NCBI RefSeq assembly: GCF_004634385.1
Contig: NZ_CP037895.1
Span: 124,001-188,000, forward strand
DNA: 64,000 nucleotides
Origin: Thermaerobacter sp. FW80
GTDB taxonomy: Bacteria; Bacillota; Sulfobacillia; Thermaerobacterales; Thermaerobacteraceae
Reading direction: 5' to 3'
Part shown: piece by piece, positions 2,379 through 51,622 of the stretch
How the letters are laid out: the number at the start of each line of letters is the position of its first letter
Position numbering within the stretch: the stretch's first letter is position 1
Translations under genes and position numbers: made by a program
Notes under the pieces: generated by a model
Seen by the model: only the letters and a program-made list of their open reading frames with translations
What the model was told of the DNA's origin: nothing
The model's database searches: none

Positions 2379-3401
2379 ATGCGCCGGTACCGTACCGTGA
2401 TCGTCCGCAAGGGGCCGGGTGGCTGGGGAGGTCCCCTGCGGATCACCCCGTCCGACGAGCGGAATGTCATCGCCTCCGTCACGGGTGGGGGCATCCACCC
2501 GGTGGCGCAACAGATCGCCGAGCTGACGGGAGCCGACGTCGTGGACGCCTTCAACAACCCGGTCCCCACCGACAAGATGGCGTGTGTGGTCATCGACTGC
2601 GGCGGCACCGCGCGATGCGGCGTCTATCCGCGGATGGGGGTCCTCACGGTCGACGTCACCCCGACCTTCCCGTCCGGGCCGTTGATGCAATACATCCGCG
2701 AGGACAACTTCGTCTCCGGCGTGACGGCGGAATGCGTGGAATTGGCGGAAGAGGCGGGCGTCCCCACCCAGACCCGAGAGCCGGCGCCCGCGCCCGCCAT
2801 GGCAGCCCCCACGGCCACCCATGCGGCCGTCGCGCACCCGCCGGCTCCCGTGGCCCGACCCGCGGGCGGCTCGGACAACCCGCTCACGCGCACCGGGCGG
2901 GCCGTGGGGGGCGTGGTGGGGATCTTCTACCAGGCCGGCCGGGAGACCATCGAACAAGTCCTGCGCAACATCATCCCCTTCATGGCCTTCGTCTCGACCC
3001 TCGTGGGCATCATCCCGGCATCGGGCCTCGGCAACCTCATCGCCGCCGGCATCAAACCCCTGGCGGGCACCCTTCCTGGACTGCTGCTCATCTCCCTGGT
3101 ATGCAGCCTTCCCTTCCTGTCCCCCGTGCTGGGACCCGGTGCGGTGGTCGCCCAAGTCGTCGGGACCCTGGTCGGCGTGGAGATCGGACGGGGCAACATC
3201 CCGCCCCAGCTCGCCCTGCCCGCCCTCTTTGCCATCAATCCCCAGGTGGGGTGCGACTTCGTGCCCGTTGGACTCACGCTGGGCGAGGCCAAACCGGAGA
3301 CCATCGAGGTCGGCGTACCGGCGGTGCTCATCTCCCGGCTGTTCACCGGCCCGGCCGCGGTCGTCATCGCCTACCTGGCGAGCTTTGGCCTCTACCGCTG
3401 A
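2379..3401 (+). CDS. srlE: PTS glucitol/sorbitol-specific IIB component with membrane domain
   Basis: 340 aa. The N-terminal cytosolic IIB domain (about residues 1-130) carries VIDCGGTARCGVYP, so Cys74 is the likely phospho-acceptor. An Ala/Pro-rich linker (about 131-165) leads to a membrane domain (about 185-340) with several hydrophobic helices, including NIIPFMAFVSTLVGIIP and SLPFLSPVLGPGAVVAQVVG. This two-part layout is that of SrlE/GutE. It accepts phosphate from IIA and passes it to the incoming polyol. The start has GGATCGGAGGAGGA just upstream. Confidence 0.93.
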   Translation: MRRYRTVIVRKGPGGWGGPLRITPSDERNVIASVTGGGIHPVAQQIAELTGADVVDAFNNPVPTDKMACVVIDCGGTARCGVYPRMGVLTVDVTPTFPSGPLMQYIREDNFVSGVTAECVELAEEAGVPTQTREPAPAPAMAAPTATHAAVAHPPAPVARPAGGSDNPLTRTGRAVGGVVGIFYQAGRETIEQVLRNIIPFMAFVSTLVGIIPASGLGNLIAAGIKPLAGTLPGLLLISLVCSLPFLSPVLGPGAVVAQVVGTLVGVEIGRGNIPPQLALPALFAINPQVGCDFVPVGLTLGEAKPETIEVGVPAVLISRLFTGPAAVVIAYLASFGLYR

Positions 3402-3468
3402 TGTCGGCACGTCCTTGCGCTCAATTCGGCACGTCCAGACGCCAACCTGGGACAGGTGGGAGAGCGCG

Positions 3469-3891
3469 ATGACCGTGTTCGAGAGCCGCGTCCTCGAGCT
3501 CGGACCCGAAGCGGAAGAGCTGATCGCCGCAGGCTTCCTGATCCTCTTCGGGCCGTCGGCTCCGCCCGAACTGCGGCAAGTCGCCGTGATCCACGAGCCC
3601 CGGCACCACCGGGCCCCCCTCGAACCGGGTCAGCACCTGTGGGTCGGGCCGAACCGGTACACCATCACAGCGGTCGGGTCGATGGCCAACCAGAACCTGC
3701 AGAACCTGGGACACGTGGTGATCAAGTTCAACGGACGAACCGAACCCGAGCTCCCCGGCGACGTGTGCGTGGAGACCTGGCCGACGCCCGCCGTACGACC
3801 GGGCATGTGGATCCGCGTCGAGAGGGTGGCCTCGATCCCGGCGACAACGGAAGGGGGGCGCGAAGGTGCTGAACATCAACCGGCACCTTGA
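3469..3891 (+). CDS. srlB: PTS glucitol/sorbitol-specific IIA component
   Basis: 140 aa soluble protein. It carries phosphate from HPr to the IIB domain of SrlE. The phospho-histidine is probably in VIHEPRHHR near residue 40; LWVGPNRYTITAVGSMANQNLQNLGH is the conserved core of the family. The ATG at 3469 follows GACAGGTGGGAGAGC. The end overlaps the next gene by 26 bases, which suggests translational coupling. Confidence 0.88.
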   Translation: MTVFESRVLELGPEAEELIAAGFLILFGPSAPPELRQVAVIHEPRHHRAPLEPGQHLWVGPNRYTITAVGSMANQNLQNLGHVVIKFNGRTEPELPGDVCVETWPTPAVRPGMWIRVERVASIPATTEGGREGAEHQPAP

Positions 3892-36299: not shown

Positions 36300-37880
36300 A
36301 TGGCCAACCGCAACCTGGTGGAACGGCTCACGCGCGACATCCATACGGCCAGCGCCCGGCTCGGGGCGTATCTGGACGGTTGGGCCGCCGACCGGGCGAC
36401 GATGGAACCCCTTCCCCGCGGCCTCGATGAGACCACCCGCCGCCTGGCCACGCTGCTCGGCCATGCCAGCGACCTGCACATCCGTCACCTGCGGCTGCCG
36501 GGCCAGGTCCGGGTGGCCGTCGCGGTGATCGACGGGCTGGCCGACGACGAGCTCATCCATCGCTTCGTGTTGGTCCCGCTGGCCCGCGTCCCGACCGGCA
36601 TCGACACCCCGGAGAAGGTGGTGCGGTGGCTCGTCCGCCGCGGGCTGCAGGGAACCCGCCTGCAAGCGGCCCGCCGCTTCGACGACGTCGTGCGGGAGCT
36701 GCACCGCGGCAGCGCCGTGGTGCTGGTGGACTCGGTCGACCGCGCCCTCATCCTCGACTTCAGCGGCTTCGAACACCGGCTCCCGGAGGAGCCGACGTCG
36801 GAGGTGGTGACACGCGGGCCGCGGGAGGGCTTCACCGAGGTCCTGCGCACCAACCTGGCCGCCATCCGGCGCCGCCTGGCCGACCATCGCCTGCGCATCG
36901 AGGACTTCGAGGTCGGCCGCCTGAGCCACAGCCGGGGCGCCCTCCTCTACGTGCTCGGTCGCGCCGACCCCTTGCTGGTCGAGACCGTCCGCAAGCGGCT
37001 CGCCGCCGTCGACCTGGATACCGTGGTCGACACCAGCCAGCTGGCCGCGTTCCTCTCGGGGCGGCCCTGGTCGCCCTTCATGCAGTACCGCAGCACCGAG
37101 CGCCCCGACGTCTGCACCGCCGCCCTCACCGAGGGGCGGGTGGTCCTGATGCTGGACGGGACGCCCTTTGCCCTGATCGCCCCGGCGACCTTCTGGGACT
37201 TCCTGCAGAGCCCGGAAGACCACTACCTGCGCTGGCCCTTCGGGACCGCCATGCGTCTCCTGCGCCTCTTCGCCGTGTTCGTCAGCGTGATCGGCCTGGC
37301 GCTGTACGTGGCCATCGTCAACTACCACCATGAGCTGATCCCGACCAACATGCTGGTCACGATCCTCACCAGTCGCGCCGCCGTCCCCTATCCCACGGTG
37401 GTCGAGGCGATCATCTTGAACCTCGGCTTCGACCTCCTGCGCGAGGCGGGGGCCCGCATGCCCCGCGGCATCGGCGGTGCGCTGTCCGTGGTCGGCGCCT
37501 TGGTGGTGGGGGAGGCCATGGTGCGGGGTGGTCTGGCCAGCGCCCCGATGGTGGTGCTGGCCGCGGTGACGGCGGTCGCCACCCTCTCCCTGCCGACCTT
37601 CGCCGTCACGGTACCCTTCCGCCTGATCTCCTACGCCCTGTTGCTCCTGGGCAGCGCCTTGGGGTTGTTCGGCATCGCCATGGGGGTGACCGTCGTGGTC
37701 GGGCACCTGAGCTCCCTGGAGTCGGTGGGGAAGCCCTTCCTCGCCCCGCTGGCACCCTGGCGGGGTGGGGCGCTGCTGGAAGACGTCCTGGTGCGCATGC
37801 CGTGGACCCGGCACCGCAAGCCGGTGCCCTTCGTCCCCGTGGAGCGGACCTTCGCGCGGACGGCGGGGCCCACGCCATGA
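36300..37880 (+). CDS. gerAA: Spore germination protein, GerAA type (locus 1)
   Basis: 526 aa A-subunit of a GerA germinant receptor in the spore inner membrane. The N-terminal ~290 residues are soluble (including RLRIEDFEVGRLSHSRGALLYVLGRADP and STERPDVCTAALTEGRVVLMLDGTPFALIAP). A membrane region follows (about 315-475) with FWDFLQSPEDHYLRWPFGTAMRLLRLFAV, the most conserved GerAA segment, and NYHHELIP. Its stop overlaps the next start (ATGA). No ribosome site precedes ATG 36300, and a CATACTA box sits nine bases before it. Confidence 0.9.
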   Translation: MANRNLVERLTRDIHTASARLGAYLDGWAADRATMEPLPRGLDETTRRLATLLGHASDLHIRHLRLPGQVRVAVAVIDGLADDELIHRFVLVPLARVPTGIDTPEKVVRWLVRRGLQGTRLQAARRFDDVVRELHRGSAVVLVDSVDRALILDFSGFEHRLPEEPTSEVVTRGPREGFTEVLRTNLAAIRRRLADHRLRIEDFEVGRLSHSRGALLYVLGRADPLLVETVRKRLAAVDLDTVVDTSQLAAFLSGRPWSPFMQYRSTERPDVCTAALTEGRVVLMLDGTPFALIAPATFWDFLQSPEDHYLRWPFGTAMRLLRLFAVFVSVIGLALYVAIVNYHHELIPTNMLVTILTSRAAVPYPTVVEAIILNLGFDLLREAGARMPRGIGGALSVVGALVVGEAMVRGGLASAPMVVLAAVTAVATLSLPTFAVTVPFRLISYALLLLGSALGLFGIAMGVTVVVGHLSSLESVGKPFLAPLAPWRGGALLEDVLVRMPWTRHRKPVPFVPVERTFARTAGPTP

Positions 37881-40219
37881 GATCGCAACGGGTCGAAGCC
37901 CTGCAGGTCGCCATCAACGCCATCATCGCGGTGACCACGGCGGCGCTGCTGTACCTGCCGCGGCCCGTGGTGGTGCGGGCGGGGCGGGATGGCTGGGTGG
38001 CGGTGGGCCTGGCGACGCTGCTCGGCATGGCCCTGGCCTGGTGCTGGTGGGCCCTGTTCTTCCGGCCGGAGCGGGCACCGGGCGAGCAGGCGTCGGGGAC
38101 CCGGCCCGGCTGGGGCGATCGCCTGCTGGCCGCGGGCCTCGCCGGGTACGCCACGTACCTGACGGCGGTGCTCGTCGCCCAGGTCGCCACCGTGTTCGCC
38201 ACGGTCCTGCCGGAGATGCCCGTCGCGGTGTTCGCCGCCGGGACGGCGCTGACGGGTTGGGTCCTGGCGGCCTACGGCCTGGAGGCGGTCTACCGCAGCG
38301 GCCAGGCGCTCTTCCCCCTGATGGTGGGGGCCAGCGTGCTCAACCTCGCCGTCGTGCTGGCGGGGAACGTGGACGTCCGCGAGCTGACGCCCCTCCTCGA
38401 AACGGGTCTCGGTCCGGTGATGGCCGCCTTGCCAGTGGCCTTGGCCTTCGCCGGCGAGGCGGTCGTCGTGCTGGCAGCCGCCGGCCGGGTCCGGGACCCT
38501 GGGCGCCTGCGCCGGGCGCTGCCCCTGGCCGTGGCCCTCTCAGGCCTCCTGCTGGTCGCCTACACCGCCGCCGCCGTCGCGGTGCTCGGGGCGACCGAGG
38601 TGGCGCGGTCCACCTTCCCCGTGCTCAGCCTGATCCGTCAGGTCCGCGCCAGCCTGTTCCTCCTGCGCCTGGAGATCCTCACGCTGTTCGCGTGGCTGAC
38701 GGGCGCCTTCGTCCATCTGGGCTTGTTGCTGACGGCGGCCGGGACGGCCGCGTCCCGCGCTCTCTCCGTGCGGTCGCGATGGCACGGCGTGGTGACCGCC
38801 GTCCCCGCCGCCGGGGCGGGATGGTTGGGCGTGGTGGCGTTCGAAAGCGGTCCAATGCTTCTCGACCACGTGGAGCGGATCTTCCCGGCGGTGTCCATGA
38901 CGGGGATGGCCTTCCTGCTGGTCGGCGGGTGGTTGAGCCTCAAGGGACGCCGGTCCAGCCGACCGCGACCGCCGACGCCCCGGACCGGGTCCCCCCGGTT
39001 GGACGGGAGGGAGGAGACCGGATCCGCTGGGTCTGCAAAGGCAGGTCCTTCCCGCCTCGAGGTCCGTGGCGCCGCACCCGGGTCGCGGCGGGCCGCGGCC
39101 CTGGGGATGCTCGCCCTCTCGGCCGGCCTGTTCCTCGGCGGCTGCTATGGCCGCATCGAGCCCGAGCAAGCCGCCGTGGTGACGGTGCTGGGCCTCGATC
39201 GAACCCGCAGCGACCGCCTGCTGCTGACCGTCGAGATCGTCGGCGCCCCCACCGCCGGTCCCATGGAACAACCGGGCAGCATCGCCCACCGGCTGCTCCA
39301 CGCCGAAGGCCAGTCGCTCCTCGACGCGCAGCGGCGGCTGGAGCTGGCCGCGGGGCGGGAGATGCTGTGGAGCCACGTCAACGTGGTGCTGGTGGGGCGG
39401 GACCTGGCCCGATCGGGCCTCGAGCCCGTCCTGGACACCCTGTCCCGGCGCTACACCTTTCGCCGCAACGCCTTCCTGTTCGTCACCGACGGTCCGGCCG
39501 GCCAGTTCCTCCGCCGCCTCCACCCCGCCTTCGGCGCGCCGCGGTTCGTCGCCTTCCAGCGGATGATGCTTCGCCCCTCCGCCCGTCTCGGTCCACCCAT
39601 CGATCTGAACGCCTTCCTGCGCACCGTGGGCCACGGGGGTGAGGATCCGGCGGTGCCCGTGGTGGATCTCGCCGCGTCGACGCTGACCGAGCCCATGGTG
39701 CGGCGCGTGGCCCTGTTCCGCGGCCTGCACCTGGTCGCCCTGGCGGACGAACCGGCCACCCGGGGCCTGTACTGGTTGACGGGCCAGCAAGAGGTGGACC
39801 GGCTGGTGTGGCCCTGCCCCGGGGATCCGCCGGGCCGTGGGTTCGGGGCCACCGCCGTGCGCAGCAGCAGCCGGCGGAGTGCCCGCTGGACCCCCGAAGG
39901 GCCTGCGGCCTCCGTGCGGGTGCGCGTGGAGGCGGACGTCGAAGAGTGGCGATGTACGGAGCCCCTGACGACGGCCGCCTTGCCGCGCGCCGAGGCCGCA
40001 GCGGAACGCGCCGTGCGCCGCGACGTCGCCGCCCTTATCGACTTGGCGCGGCGCCAGGGGGTGGATCCGGCCGGGTTCGGCCTGGAATTGCACCGCCGCG
40101 ATCCCGCCGCGTGGCGGACCGTGGCCTCGCGGTGGCGCCGGCGCGTCGCGAGCCTCCCGGTCTCGGTGCAGGTGGACGTCCACCTGCGGCGCACCGGGTT
40201 GACGATGGGTGCGCCCTGA
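37877..40219 (+). CDS. GerAB-GerAC fusion protein (permease plus Ger(x)C lipoprotein)
   Basis: 780 aa. Residues 1-355 are a GerAB-type APC-superfamily permease with ten hydrophobic segments (first LQVAINAIIAVTTAALLYLPRP; then TALTGWVLAAYGLEAVYRSG). A Pro/Arg-rich linker (about 356-400) leads, without a stop, into a complete GerAC: the hydrophobic signal LGMLALSAGLFLGGC with lipobox Cys423, GRIEPEQAAVVTVLGLDR, WSHVNVVLVG, then the C-terminal GerAC domain (DVAALIDLARRQGVDPAGFG to the end). The two parts are separate genes in locus 2. Starts within gerAA's stop (ATGA). Internal initiation at ATG 39109 could still yield a free GerAC. Confidence 0.88.
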   Translation: MRSQRVEALQVAINAIIAVTTAALLYLPRPVVVRAGRDGWVAVGLATLLGMALAWCWWALFFRPERAPGEQASGTRPGWGDRLLAAGLAGYATYLTAVLVAQVATVFATVLPEMPVAVFAAGTALTGWVLAAYGLEAVYRSGQALFPLMVGASVLNLAVVLAGNVDVRELTPLLETGLGPVMAALPVALAFAGEAVVVLAAAGRVRDPGRLRRALPLAVALSGLLLVAYTAAAVAVLGATEVARSTFPVLSLIRQVRASLFLLRLEILTLFAWLTGAFVHLGLLLTAAGTAASRALSVRSRWHGVVTAVPAAGAGWLGVVAFESGPMLLDHVERIFPAVSMTGMAFLLVGGWLSLKGRRSSRPRPPTPRTGSPRLDGREETGSAGSAKAGPSRLEVRGAAPGSRRAAALGMLALSAGLFLGGCYGRIEPEQAAVVTVLGLDRTRSDRLLLTVEIVGAPTAGPMEQPGSIAHRLLHAEGQSLLDAQRRLELAAGREMLWSHVNVVLVGRDLARSGLEPVLDTLSRRYTFRRNAFLFVTDGPAGQFLRRLHPAFGAPRFVAFQRMMLRPSARLGPPIDLNAFLRTVGHGGEDPAVPVVDLAASTLTEPMVRRVALFRGLHLVALADEPATRGLYWLTGQQEVDRLVWPCPGDPPGRGFGATAVRSSSRRSARWTPEGPAASVRVRVEADVEEWRCTEPLTTAALPRAEAAAERAVRRDVAALIDLARRQGVDPAGFGLELHRRDPAAWRTVASRWRRRVASLPVSVQVDVHLRRTGLTMGAP

Positions 40220-47040: not shown

Positions 47041-48357
47041 TCACGGCGCCGAGACAGTCAGCTGCTGCCCGCGGACGTGGAAGGTGACCGTCAGCTCGGG
47101 ACGGAGGTCCCGCACCCAGGTGCGCCACTGGGTCCGGATGGTCCGCCATGTCGCCGGGTCCTGGCGGTGCAGGGCCGCCCCGAACCCGACGGGGTCGACG
47201 CCCAGCGCCGCGGCGCGGGCCAAGGCGGCCTCGATCCAACCGCGGGTCTGCCGGGCTGCCGCCTGGGCCACCGCTTGGATGCGTCGCCGGTCGACCTGGG
47301 GGTCGCGGCACTGCCACTCCAGCACGACGCCCGCCAGGTCGACCTCGAGGCGAACCCCGGGCATCGCGGCGCCGGACAGGGCCTTGGCCCCGTTCGCCCT
47401 GGACCCGGCCGCTGCCGCCCCGGCCGCCCCGTCCGCCCCAGAAGCCCCGGCGCCGCCTGCGCCGTCCGCCACGGCCGTCGGGCCGATCACCCGCACCCGC
47501 GCCTCGTCGTGGTCGACCTGGAGCGACACGCCGGTGCCACCGGTCCGGTCTCCGGATCCGCCCCCACCGGGTGCCGTGGCGGTCTCCCCCGGACAGGGCA
47601 CGACCAGGGTGAAGGGATGCGCCTCGCCCCGCGCCATCAGCAGCCCATGGTGGAGCGGAGGCGGCAGGAAGCCCACCAGCCGGTCGCCACGGAACAGGGC
47701 GATCCCCGCCGGCGCAGGGCTCCCGGAGCTCCCCTCCCCGGCCGTGGTCACCACGGGGAGGAAGGGGTCGGTGCCCGGCGTGTCGAGCCAACGCAGGACG
47801 GTGTTGCCGTCGACGCCCCGTATGGTGCCGGGCCGGTTCTTCCGGGTCACGGCGTCGAAGGAGCGGGCCACGGCCCGGTCGAGGGAGGGCCGCAGCTGCA
47901 GAAGCATCGCGCCGGCCTCGCCCCGCACCACGTACAGCGAGGCCCGACGCTCCACGCGATACCCGCGAGAGATCATCTCCAGCAGGGGCCGCAGGCCCGA
48001 CCGCGCCGCCGCCTCGCCCACCAGGATGTGATCCGCGAAGGACCAGCGGACCTCGCGGGGGATGCGATCGTCCAGCGCCTGGGCGGCCGCCTGGGGACCA
48101 GGCCCGACCGCCGAGCGGAACAGGTTGGTCCGCGTCGCGGCACCGGCCGCCCCCGCTCCCGCACCCCCCAGCGACGCGGGCAGCACCAGCTCGGGCACCG
48201 GCACCGCCACCGTCCACCGGTAGCCGCCGGATGGGGCGCGGTCCAGGGCGGCCACGGTGACGAAGGCCAGGTCGTTCACCTCGCTGTAGCCCCAGCACCC
48301 CGTCAAGGCCAGGGCACTGAGGACCAGGACGAACCCGGCCCCGAGCCGAGCCCTCAC
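47041..48357 (-). CDS. gerAC: Spore germination lipoprotein, GerAC type (locus 2)
   Basis: 438 aa Ger(x)C lipoprotein. Signal peptide with lipobox FVLVLSALALTGC, then WGYSEVNDLAFVTVAALDR and WSFADHILVGEAAARSGLRPLLEMISRGYR. The C-terminal domain (RQTRGWIEAALARAAALGVDPVGFG to the end) matches that of the fused protein in locus 1. A Gly/Ala-rich insert lies near residue 300. The GTG start overlaps the gerAB stop (GTGA). It is the last gene of a three-gene operon. Confidence 0.9.
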   Translation of the reverse strand: MRARLGAGFVLVLSALALTGCWGYSEVNDLAFVTVAALDRAPSGGYRWTVAVPVPELVLPASLGGAGAGAAGAATRTNLFRSAVGPGPQAAAQALDDRIPREVRWSFADHILVGEAAARSGLRPLLEMISRGYRVERRASLYVVRGEAGAMLLQLRPSLDRAVARSFDAVTRKNRPGTIRGVDGNTVLRWLDTPGTDPFLPVVTTAGEGSSGSPAPAGIALFRGDRLVGFLPPPLHHGLLMARGEAHPFTLVVPCPGETATAPGGGGSGDRTGGTGVSLQVDHDEARVRVIGPTAVADGAGGAGASGADGAAGAAAAGSRANGAKALSGAAMPGVRLEVDLAGVVLEWQCRDPQVDRRRIQAVAQAAARQTRGWIEAALARAAALGVDPVGFGAALHRQDPATWRTIRTQWRTWVRDLRPELTVTFHVRGQQLTVSAP

Positions 48358-49631
48358 GTTGTCACTGCCTCCTCCGGGGCGCCGGCCGCCCGCACCGACA
48401 CCGCCCCCCTCCCGCCGTCCGTCGGTGGCCGGAGCGTCCGCCCGGAGCGGGAGCCGACCGCGGGATCGATCCCGGGGCTCCCTCCGTTGGCCGCTGCGGG
48501 GACTTCGTCGACGGCCGAGCGATCGGGGGCCGGCGGGGACGTTGACCCGTCGCCCCGACGACGCGGATCCACCGGCAGGAGGCCCGCCACCGTGCCGGCC
48601 GCCAACCCGGCCCATCCCACCAGGGGCCACACCCGGGTGAACTGCCATTCCCAGCGCTGGGTGTCCGGGAAGAGCCAGAAGGCGACGGCGACGGCCGCCG
48701 CCGTCACCGCCCCGTGAACCAGCCCCTGCCGGCGTTCCGTGAGCCCCAGGGTCACCCGCAGGGTGACCCCGGCGACGTAGACGAAGAGCGCCAGCTTGAG
48801 GGCGATCCCCAGCAGCCAGGCCGAGATGGTGAAGATCTCGGGTCGCGAGAGCACCGGCACCGGCCGCGCCAGCCGCGCCAAGACGAACGTGGGCGCCACC
48901 GCCCGCGTGGTCTCGCCAGGCCCCAACACCGCCACACAGGCCGCCGTCACGCCGGCCAGCAACCCGATCATGCCCGCCGCGGCCAGCACCAGCGGCCGGA
49001 TCCGCCGATCCCGGGATGCCAGCCCGTCCGCGAAGTAGGCCAGCAGCAGGGTCTCCGCCGCCGCGGCCGCCATCACCCCGGCGCCCCGCACCAGGGGAGC
49101 GGGGCCGTGCTCCAGCAGCGGCAGCAGCTGCGCCCACTCCGCGTTGCCCGGCAACAGGATGGCCAGGTTGACGAAGAGCGCCGCCACCATCACCGGCAGG
49201 ACCATCAATCCCACCCGCGCCAGGGTCTCGCGGCCGTAGGCAGCCAGGACCCACGCGGTCAGGGCCAGCGTCCCGTGAAAGGCCCATACGGGCGTCTCGG
49301 CGTAGACCACGACCATCAGCATCACCGTCTCCCCGAGGATCCCGCCGGCATGGTAGACGGCATAGGCCACCAGCACCGGCAGCAGCAGCCAGCGCGCCCA
49401 GGGGTGGCCGCGCAGCCGGTCGAGGGGCGTCAGGCCCGGCCGCAAGTAGAACGCGTACCAGGCGCCGAGGACCAGGGCCACCACCGGGGTGTTGGCCAAC
49501 ACCGCCAGCCACGCATCCCGGCCGGCCACGGCCGTCAGCGACCGCGGCAGGAAGAACACCAGGGTCGCCAGCACGACGACGATCAGGAGCGCGGCAAGGG
49601 ACACCGAATCCACCTGATCGCGCCGTGGCAA
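48354..49631 (-). CDS. gerAB: Spore germination permease, GerAB type (locus 2)
   Basis: 425 aa. APC-superfamily permease with ten hydrophobic segments (first DSVSLAALLIVVVLATLVFFLPRSL; TLALTAWVLAAYGRETLARVG aligns with the fused GerAB of locus 1). Members bind the small-molecule germinant. The C-terminal ~65 residues are a Pro/Ser-rich tail, comparable with the linker found in the fusion of locus 1. TTG start at 49631 with GGGAGGG upstream. The stop overlaps gerAC by 4 bp. Confidence 0.9.
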   Translation of the reverse strand: MPRRDQVDSVSLAALLIVVVLATLVFFLPRSLTAVAGRDAWLAVLANTPVVALVLGAWYAFYLRPGLTPLDRLRGHPWARWLLLPVLVAYAVYHAGGILGETVMLMVVVYAETPVWAFHGTLALTAWVLAAYGRETLARVGLMVLPVMVAALFVNLAILLPGNAEWAQLLPLLEHGPAPLVRGAGVMAAAAAETLLLAYFADGLASRDRRIRPLVLAAAGMIGLLAGVTAACVAVLGPGETTRAVAPTFVLARLARPVPVLSRPEIFTISAWLLGIALKLALFVYVAGVTLRVTLGLTERRQGLVHGAVTAAAVAVAFWLFPDTQRWEWQFTRVWPLVGWAGLAAGTVAGLLPVDPRRRGDGSTSPPAPDRSAVDEVPAAANGGSPGIDPAVGSRSGRTLRPPTDGGRGAVSVRAAGAPEEAVTT

Positions 49632-49723
49632 TGCCGTCCCTCCCTACCCCGCCCCAGGCAGGCGGCCCGGTGGGCCCAGGCCCGTCAGGGCGGCCCCCGC
49701 AAGCGCTCGCGACCCGCCCGGGC

Positions 49724-51622
49724 TCACCGTCCCCGTCCCGTCTCGCGCCCGATCAGCGGCGGCTTGCCCCGCATCATCACCCACGGTGCCCGGACCAGCG
49801 TGTCCTCCCAGCCCTGCGGCCGGTAGGGCGCGTGGGGCGTCAGATACGGCACGCCCACCGAGCGCAGGGAGGCCATGTGGGCCAGGACGATGAGGAAGGC
49901 CGTCACCAGTCCGTACATCCCGAAGACCGTGGCCACCCCCAAGAAGACGTAGTGGAGGATGCGGAAGGGGATGGCGGCGGCGAAGGTCGGTAGTGCGAAG
50001 GCGGCCATGGCGCTGGCGCCGATCAGGATCAGCGTCGGCGCGGTCACGATGCCCGCCCGCACGGCCGTGTCCCCGATGACGAGGCCGCCCACGATGGTGA
50101 GGGCGCCGCCGACCTGGCGGGGCAACCGCGTGGTGGCCTCCCGCAGGATGTCGAATATGAAGCTGAGCACGATGGCCTCGAGGGCCGTGGGAAAGGGCAG
50201 GGCCTCCCGCGATGCCGCCAGGGTGAAGAGGAACTCCCGCGGGATCAACTCCTGGTTGTAGGTGGTCACCGCCACATAGAGGGGGAGGCCCACGGTCATC
50301 AGCAGCACGGCGAACAGCCGCACCAGCCGCAGGGTCGAGGCGAAGGGCCAGCGCAGATAGTAGTCGTCCGGCGACTGCAGCAGGTCCCAGAACTGCAGCG
50401 GCACCACCACGGCAAAGGGTGTGCCGTCCACCAGCACCGCCACCCGCCCTTCCATCAGCCCCGCCGCCACCACGTCGGGTCGTTCGGTCAACCTCGCCTG
50501 GGGAAAGAGCGAGAGCGGCCGATCCTGGAGCAACGCCTCCACCTGTTCCTCCGAGAAGACCAGATCCCAAGGGGCGGACTCCAGCCGCCGGCGCACCAGG
50601 GCCACGGTGCCCGGATCGGCCCGGCCGGCCACGTAGGCGATGGCCGTGCGGGTGCGCGTCTGCCGGCCGGTGTCCAGCTCCTCGATGCGCAGATGGGGGG
50701 TGCGCAACCGACGCCGCAGGGCGGCGGTGTTGGTCCGCAAGACCTCGACGAAGGCCTCCCGGGGACCGCCGATGGTGCCCTCGGTGGCCGGGTCGTCGAT
50801 GCTGCGGTGTTCGAACTGGCGCACGTCGACGAGCCATGCACCCCCCGACCCCGCCGCGGGCCCAGAGGACGCCGGGGACGAGGGCACCGCGGGCACGCGG
50901 GACGGCGAGGACGAGGGTACCGCGGGCACGGGAGGCACCGGAGACGACGGCGACGCCGGGGGCACGGGGATCGCCATGCCCGCCGGGCGATCCACCGCCA
51001 CCAGCGCGCATCCCTGGAGGAGACCGTCCACGACCTCGGCGAGACGGTGGACAGGGCGAGCCCGGCCGCCGGGCAGGAGCCCGCGATCCAGCCACCGGGC
51101 CGCTTCGTCGGCCGGCTCCGGCAATCGCTCGGTCAGGGGCCGCAGGATGCAGCGATGGACCAGCTCCTCCCCCACCAGCCCGTCCACGTAGGCCACCAGG
51201 ACGACGGCCGCCTGAGGCCGGCGAATCGGCACCACCACCAGGTCGGCCGGGTGACCGAGGGCGTCCCGCAGCCGATGCTCCAGCTCCGACACGGCGGGCG
51301 GGATGGGCGCCGCCAGCGCCAGCTCCGCCGCCCAGCGATCCACCTGGCCCAGGAAGTCGTCCAGGTGCTCCCGCAGCCGGGTGACCGGAGACTCGGCCAG
51401 GGGCGGTTGTCCGCTCACCGGCACGGGCGACCGGGAGGGTAGGCGGGGGTCGGTGCGACCCGGCCGCCCGCCCGCCCCCGACAGGCCCCGGTCGGGATGG
51501 ATCGCCGGCTGTCCTGTGCCGGCCGGGGCGGATGCGGTCCGGTCGCGGATACGGCCCGTGCCGGACTCCCGCATCGGCCTCCTCGGGTCCATGGGGTTCG
51601 ACGGCTCCTCCAGGGCCTTCAC
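49724..51622 (-). CDS. gerAA: Spore germination protein, GerAA type (locus 2)
   Basis: Up to 632 aa. Soluble N-terminal part with RLREHLDDFLGQVDRW, then IRRPQAAVVLVAYVDGLV. A Pro/Ser-rich insert lies near residues 212-258. The core is HLRIEELDTGRQTRTRTAIAYVAGRADP and RLTERPDVVAAGLMEGRVAVLVDGTPFAVVV, with membrane segments from about 420. The conserved FWDLLQSPDDYYLRWPFASTLRLVRL matches locus 1. The start is uncertain: GTG 51622 lacks a ribosome site; ATG 51592 and ATG 51574 lie inside a GAGGAGG-containing stretch. Confidence 0.87.
   Translation of the reverse strand: MKALEEPSNPMDPRRPMRESGTGRIRDRTASAPAGTGQPAIHPDRGLSGAGGRPGRTDPRLPSRSPVPVSGQPPLAESPVTRLREHLDDFLGQVDRWAAELALAAPIPPAVSELEHRLRDALGHPADLVVVPIRRPQAAVVLVAYVDGLVGEELVHRCILRPLTERLPEPADEAARWLDRGLLPGGRARPVHRLAEVVDGLLQGCALVAVDRPAGMAIPVPPASPSSPVPPVPAVPSSSPSRVPAVPSSPASSGPAAGSGGAWLVDVRQFEHRSIDDPATEGTIGGPREAFVEVLRTNTAALRRRLRTPHLRIEELDTGRQTRTRTAIAYVAGRADPGTVALVRRRLESAPWDLVFSEEQVEALLQDRPLSLFPQARLTERPDVVAAGLMEGRVAVLVDGTPFAVVVPLQFWDLLQSPDDYYLRWPFASTLRLVRLFAVLLMTVGLPLYVAVTTYNQELIPREFLFTLAASREALPFPTALEAIVLSFIFDILREATTRLPRQVGGALTIVGGLVIGDTAVRAGIVTAPTLILIGASAMAAFALPTFAAAIPFRILHYVFLGVATVFGMYGLVTAFLIVLAHMASLRSVGVPYLTPHAPYRPQGWEDTLVRAPWVMMRGKPPLIGRETGRGR
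50876..50930. repeat. Coding repeat in locus-2 gerAA
   Basis: Two 22-bp copies (50876-50897 and 50909-50930, one mismatch) with a 33-bp period encode part of the Pro/Ser-rich insert of GerAA. The insert is likely to vary in length between strains. Confidence 0.6.

Follow-up and report, generated by a model that had tools for sequence, protein, structure and literature searches.

A gerAB–gerAC gene fusion, conserved in frame and recurrent among spore-formers, within a GerA-type germinant receptor operon

The fused gene and its operon

The window analyzed here, by which we mean the whole stretch of 64,000 nucleotides, contains a 780-codon open frame that runs from ATG to TGA and encodes a GerAB permease, a linker of ~47 residues and a complete GerAC (Table 1). 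The frame is preceded by gerAA, and the two genes overlap as ATGA, which holds both the TGA stop of gerAA and the ATG of the fused gene. The Pfam domain calls on the fused gene all exceed the curated cut-offs. Hydropathy analysis revealed ten hydrophobic segments in the permease part, the last of which ends by residue 353, and an eleventh that coincides with an internal lipoprotein signal and ends in the lipobox cysteine Cys423 (39143-39145); the residues LFLGG lie directly before Cys423, downstream of the hydrophobic stretch. A preliminary description had reported a single 780-residue frame that holds both subunits with no stop, a retained lipobox ending in Cys423 and a second locus (47041-49631) with separate gerAB and gerAC. 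The open frame and the Pfam domains bear out the first of these, hydropathy and a comparison of GerAC cysteines the second, and the sequence the third.

Table 1. Features of the fused operon and of the paralogous gerAB and gerAC genes in the window.
Feature	Position	Strand	Evidence
gerAA, which encodes the A subunit and opens the operon	36300-37880	+	Pfam GerA, PF03323, E 8.4e-153
Fused gerAB-gerAC gene, 780 aa	37877-40219	+	Open frame; Pfam domains; same fusion in two other species
GerAB domain match (Spore_permease, PF03845), residues 7-301	37895-38779	+	Pfam, E 1.3e-30
Linker, residues 356-402, Pro/Arg/Gly/Ser-rich, net basic	38942-39082	+	Three-species junction comparison
Internal lipoprotein signal, residues 403-423 (SRRAAALGMLALSAGLFLGGC)	39083-39145	+	Hydropathy, lipobox comparison
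ATG codon 411, weak internal-start candidate	39107-39109	+	Only junction ATG/GTG/TTG conserved in three species
GerAC N-terminal domain match (Spore_GerAC_N, PF25198), residues 426-597	39152-39667	+	Pfam, E 3.1e-27
GerAC C-terminal domain match (Spore_GerAC, PF05504), residues 611-774	39707-40198	+	Pfam, E 5.1e-25
Separate gerAC, paralogous operon	47041-48357	-	Sequence, Pfam
Separate gerAB, paralogous operon	48354-49631	-	Sequence, Pfam

The operon shares its three parts, their order, strand and Pfam domains with the tricistronic receptors of the GerA family (B. subtilis gerAA-gerAB-gerAC type), whose archetypal ABC gene order has been described (PMC5083711). An A subunit with a GerA domain, a ten-segment Spore_permease and a GerAC behind a lipoprotein signal are all present, and a solved structure, 3N54 (spore germination protein B3), is matched by the GerAC part of the fused profile. 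The signal consists, as in other lipoproteins, of basic residues and a hydrophobic run followed by cysteine, at an internal rather than an N-terminal position. In the described layouts of the family B and C are separate genes that yield separate proteins, whereas here, in three species, they occupy one frame. Because all the domains that define the receptor are in place, we regard the fused gene as a variant within the GerA-type family; judged from its sequence, the missing separation marks a variant and not a non-member. Structure prediction with the window sequences alone as input gave a mean pLDDT of 39, too low to be of use.

The window contains two paralogous gerA operons (36300-40219 and 47041-51622), which lie on opposite strands in convergent orientation, about 7 kb apart; two further GerAC genes are located elsewhere in the genome. 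Both the second operon (- strand) and a relative from a sister genus, G465, have a gene order like that of the fused operon, and their GerACs form the group closest to the fused GerACs of the genus in the tree described below. Unlike in the fused gene, gerAB and gerAC are separate in both: in the second operon they overlap as GTGA, with a strong Shine-Dalgarno sequence for gerAC, whereas the G465 relative has a TGA and a likely GTG start of its own for gerAC. Judged by its E-value, G465 C489 had at first looked like an orthologue of the fused gene in which the two parts are separate; this candidate was rejected, as it groups with the second locus.

Conservation of the fused frame within the genus

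The fused locus has a GC content of about 74%, and spurious open frames fill much of the window. Because the genome is GC-rich, the open frame by itself says little. We sought a coding signature in the linker by codon-position GC and codon usage and found none, with tests that we consider uninformative. The same fused frame is, however, found in two of the three other species of the genus (L020:4404-6797, 797 aa; L019:6149-8608 (-), 819 aa), as a search of related genomes suggested in the preliminary description revealed. The linkers of these two genes are 17 and 39 codons longer, respectively, and the frame is maintained; when the junctions are aligned, one gap spans 66 and the other 117 bases, both multiples of three. 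An in-frame stop was sought in the junctions of all three species and none was found, and in all three the domains score well past the Pfam cut-offs. Since the frame is held in two further species despite the junction gaps, and since fusions also occur in genomes of lower GC content (see below), the comparison indicates that the fusion exceeds chance. A sequencing or assembly error was rejected on the strength of the two further species.

In the fourth species, G001, the whole operon is absent between the same neighbors (gntR and an amidase-like gene), and a search of this site for a remnant of the operon found none. A helicase-like gene of ~1067 aa lies between gntR and the amidase-like gene at this site (L191:6862-10065, G001:C1); by eye, its product seems to carry phospholipase-D-type and zinc-finger parts.

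Fusions in other spore-formers

We searched about 400 genomes from the phylum and 154 from the class with a profile of the fused protein and subsequently with one built from several such proteins, and scanned the matched loci frame by frame. Outside the genus, fused genes were found in G053 (L106, L175), G007 (L174), G175 (L104), G273 (L124) and G416 (L112), which is a lower bound, as no more than two candidates per genome were scored in the ~400-genome screen. The GC content of these loci ranges from 0.51 to 0.65, and their linkers are shorter. Like the fused gene of the window, they hold GerAB and GerAC in one frame with a lipobox cysteine, and gerAA lies directly upstream except at L124, where the contig ends. 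Even where the linker comprises only a few residues, the junctions of the fused lineages retain a hydrophobic run, with basic residues and Gly-Cys. Two scans of genome contigs found no relatives.

Fused and separate genes were mapped on a FastTree phylogeny built from 130 GerACs. Five changes between the two states are required on this tree, three of them forced by well-supported branches, a count that does not separate gain from loss. As read from these loci, the fusion is rare yet recurrent, and its scattered distribution on the tree probably reflects several independent events. The genuine in-frame fusion with a retained lipobox that the preliminary description had proposed stands, and its recurrence outside the genus had not been foreseen.

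Full-span profile matches that contain one stop were excluded from the fusion count. Such a single stop parts the two genes, which apparently share a frame, in the unrelated genomes G202, G362, G235, G391, G054, G100, G468, G376 and others; the loss of one stop could therefore fuse them. At a further locus, G007 L107 (G007:C13, about 2932-3783, -), the last 284 residues of a fused gene are found, with 99.6% identity to L106, which is whole in G053, a relative of G007. Upstream on this contig there is no permease part, which suggests disruption or misassembly.

The internal signal and candidate internal starts

Comparison of the gene with that of G002 revealed five synonymous and no non-synonymous codon changes in the 21 codons of the internal signal, and two synonymous and 12 non-synonymous changes in 21 codons of the adjacent linker. 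Within the genus the signal is, by this measure, under purifying selection while the linker drifts. Because the protected stretch starts at SRRAAAL, ahead of ATG 411, the beginning of the signal, with its arginines, seems to be translated and in use. The lipobox cysteine is present in 9/9 fused and 117/117 separate GerACs examined. At position -3 of the lipobox, asparagine is found in the fused GerACs of one other genus (L174, L175, L106; NSGC, NQGC) and also in some separate GerACs. Both the LspA family (E 1.4e-40) and the Lgt family (E 4.6e-47) are represented in the genome.

Besides ATG 411, no ATG, GTG or TTG in the junction is common to all three species. Predicted Shine-Dalgarno pairing at this codon amounts to -5.3, -5.8 and -1.7 kcal/mol in the three species, compared with -11.8 for the paralogous gerAC; the gerAB start itself reaches only about -6.3, so that these scores alone are not decisive. 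The selection on the signal carries more weight.

Discussion

The reading that best explains the data as a whole, and which we favor with moderate confidence, is that the product of the operon is a germinant receptor of the GerA type, with subunits B and C synthesized together in a single polypeptide. With no stop in the frame, a ribosome reading gerAB enters gerAC unless it shifts frame. To the same moderate degree we consider it likely that this chain would then be lipidated and cut at Cys423 by Lgt and LspA to give separate GerAB and GerAC. One-chain synthesis followed by lipoprotein processing is favored because the cysteine is kept in all the fused and separate GerACs examined and because both enzyme families are encoded in the genome.

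Provided that GerAB, as a permease of the APC type, begins inside, its ten helices also bring it to an end there, and an eleventh helix therefore places GerAC outside; the observed order of ten segments, basic linker and eleventh segment suits such an outward GerAC. GerAB has been modelled on the APC transporter GkApcT (PMC8617281). Accordingly, insertion of the permease by ten helices would leave its end in the cytoplasm, where the basic linker would also remain, and the retained signal would cross as the eleventh helix and bring GerAC to the outer face. Lgt would lipidate Cys423 and LspA would cut before it, so that mature GerAC would be a usual lipoprotein and GerAB would retain the linker and the signal helix as a tail. 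GerF has a part in the diacylglycerylation of the C subunits of B. subtilis (PMC11841064). The fusion would act mainly on expression, through one start, equal amounts and co-insertion. This route assumes that LspA can cut a signal embedded as an internal helix in a polytopic protein. The asparagine at position -3 in two fused families of one other genus departs from the classical motif and counts against this reading, although some separate GerACs share it, and so does the linker without a coding signature; the sequences would look no different if Cys423 were lipidated but the chain left uncut.

An alternative to which we give roughly a one-in-four weight is that the chain stays whole, with the signal, lipidated or not, as a permanent eleventh transmembrane helix that tethers GerAC to GerAB in the assembled receptor. 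The topology fits, gerAB ribosomes must run into gerAC in the absence of a stop and of a good internal start, and the repeated occurrence of the fusion indicates that cells tolerate a joined chain, if only while it is being made. A lipobox cysteine in every fused lineage and purifying selection on the signal are, however, harder to explain for a mere membrane helix. Less likely still is that GerAC is mostly made from an internal start, at ATG 411 or a non-ATG codon, and that the fused chain is a minor or unstable product. All three species have ATG 411 immediately upstream of the hydrophobic core, and a purine-rich run, GGGAGGGAGGAG, lies in the linker near 39005-39016. This run has no in-frame ATG, GTG or TTG at a usable distance downstream, other start codons of the junction are not shared by the three species, and the Shine-Dalgarno pairing at ATG 411 is neither clear nor consistent when set against that of the paralogous gerAC. 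Initiation there would also lose the conserved SRRAAAL with its pair of arginines. Hence, of the two routes to two proteins raised in the preliminary description, processing is favored, and the internal start fares poorly.

Very improbable, finally, is an artefact or decay, that is, a missed stop, a frame error or a gene losing function. The linker without a coding signature and the species that lacks the operon at this site would be compatible with it, but three genomes agree although their linker lengths differ, their domains score well above the cut-offs and the signal is under purifying selection. Separate genes at the site in related strains, or a missed base, had been named as findings that would speak against the fusion; the relatives that bear the operon are all fused, and the three species show no sign of a frame error.

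It had also been proposed that a tethered receptor would fix the two subunits at a 1:1 ratio. This argument is weak, because published models already have A, B and C at 1:1:1 in a pentamer or hexamer (PMC11841064, PMC13170314), and the fusion sets no new ratio. What the fusion might do is couple synthesis and membrane insertion. The stability of GerAA and GerAC depends on GerAB (PMC8617281), and selection for joint production of B and C would be in keeping with this dependence.

We found no report of a GerAB-GerAC fusion in the literature searched; most subscription reviews lay outside this search, and a prior description is possible. Likewise, no description of anchoring of these receptors by a permanent helix was found in that literature. 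A C-subunit lipoprotein covalently tied to its permease by a permanent eleventh helix in several lineages or, alternatively, a general case in which LspA separates a polytopic membrane protein from a lipoprotein synthesized in the same chain, is a doubtful but conceivable outcome.

Taken together, the sequence comparisons confirm a fusion that is conserved, recurrent and part of a known receptor family, and that leaves the nature of the receptor unchanged. The natural fusions reveal which ends of the B and C subunits tolerate joining while the gene persists. They thereby limit the possible models of the assembled channel and provide a ready-made construct for structural work. The retained lipobox offers a sharp test of whether LspA can free a lipoprotein that is joined to the end of a protein with many helices, and the loci with a single stop show how easily neighboring subunit genes might merge.
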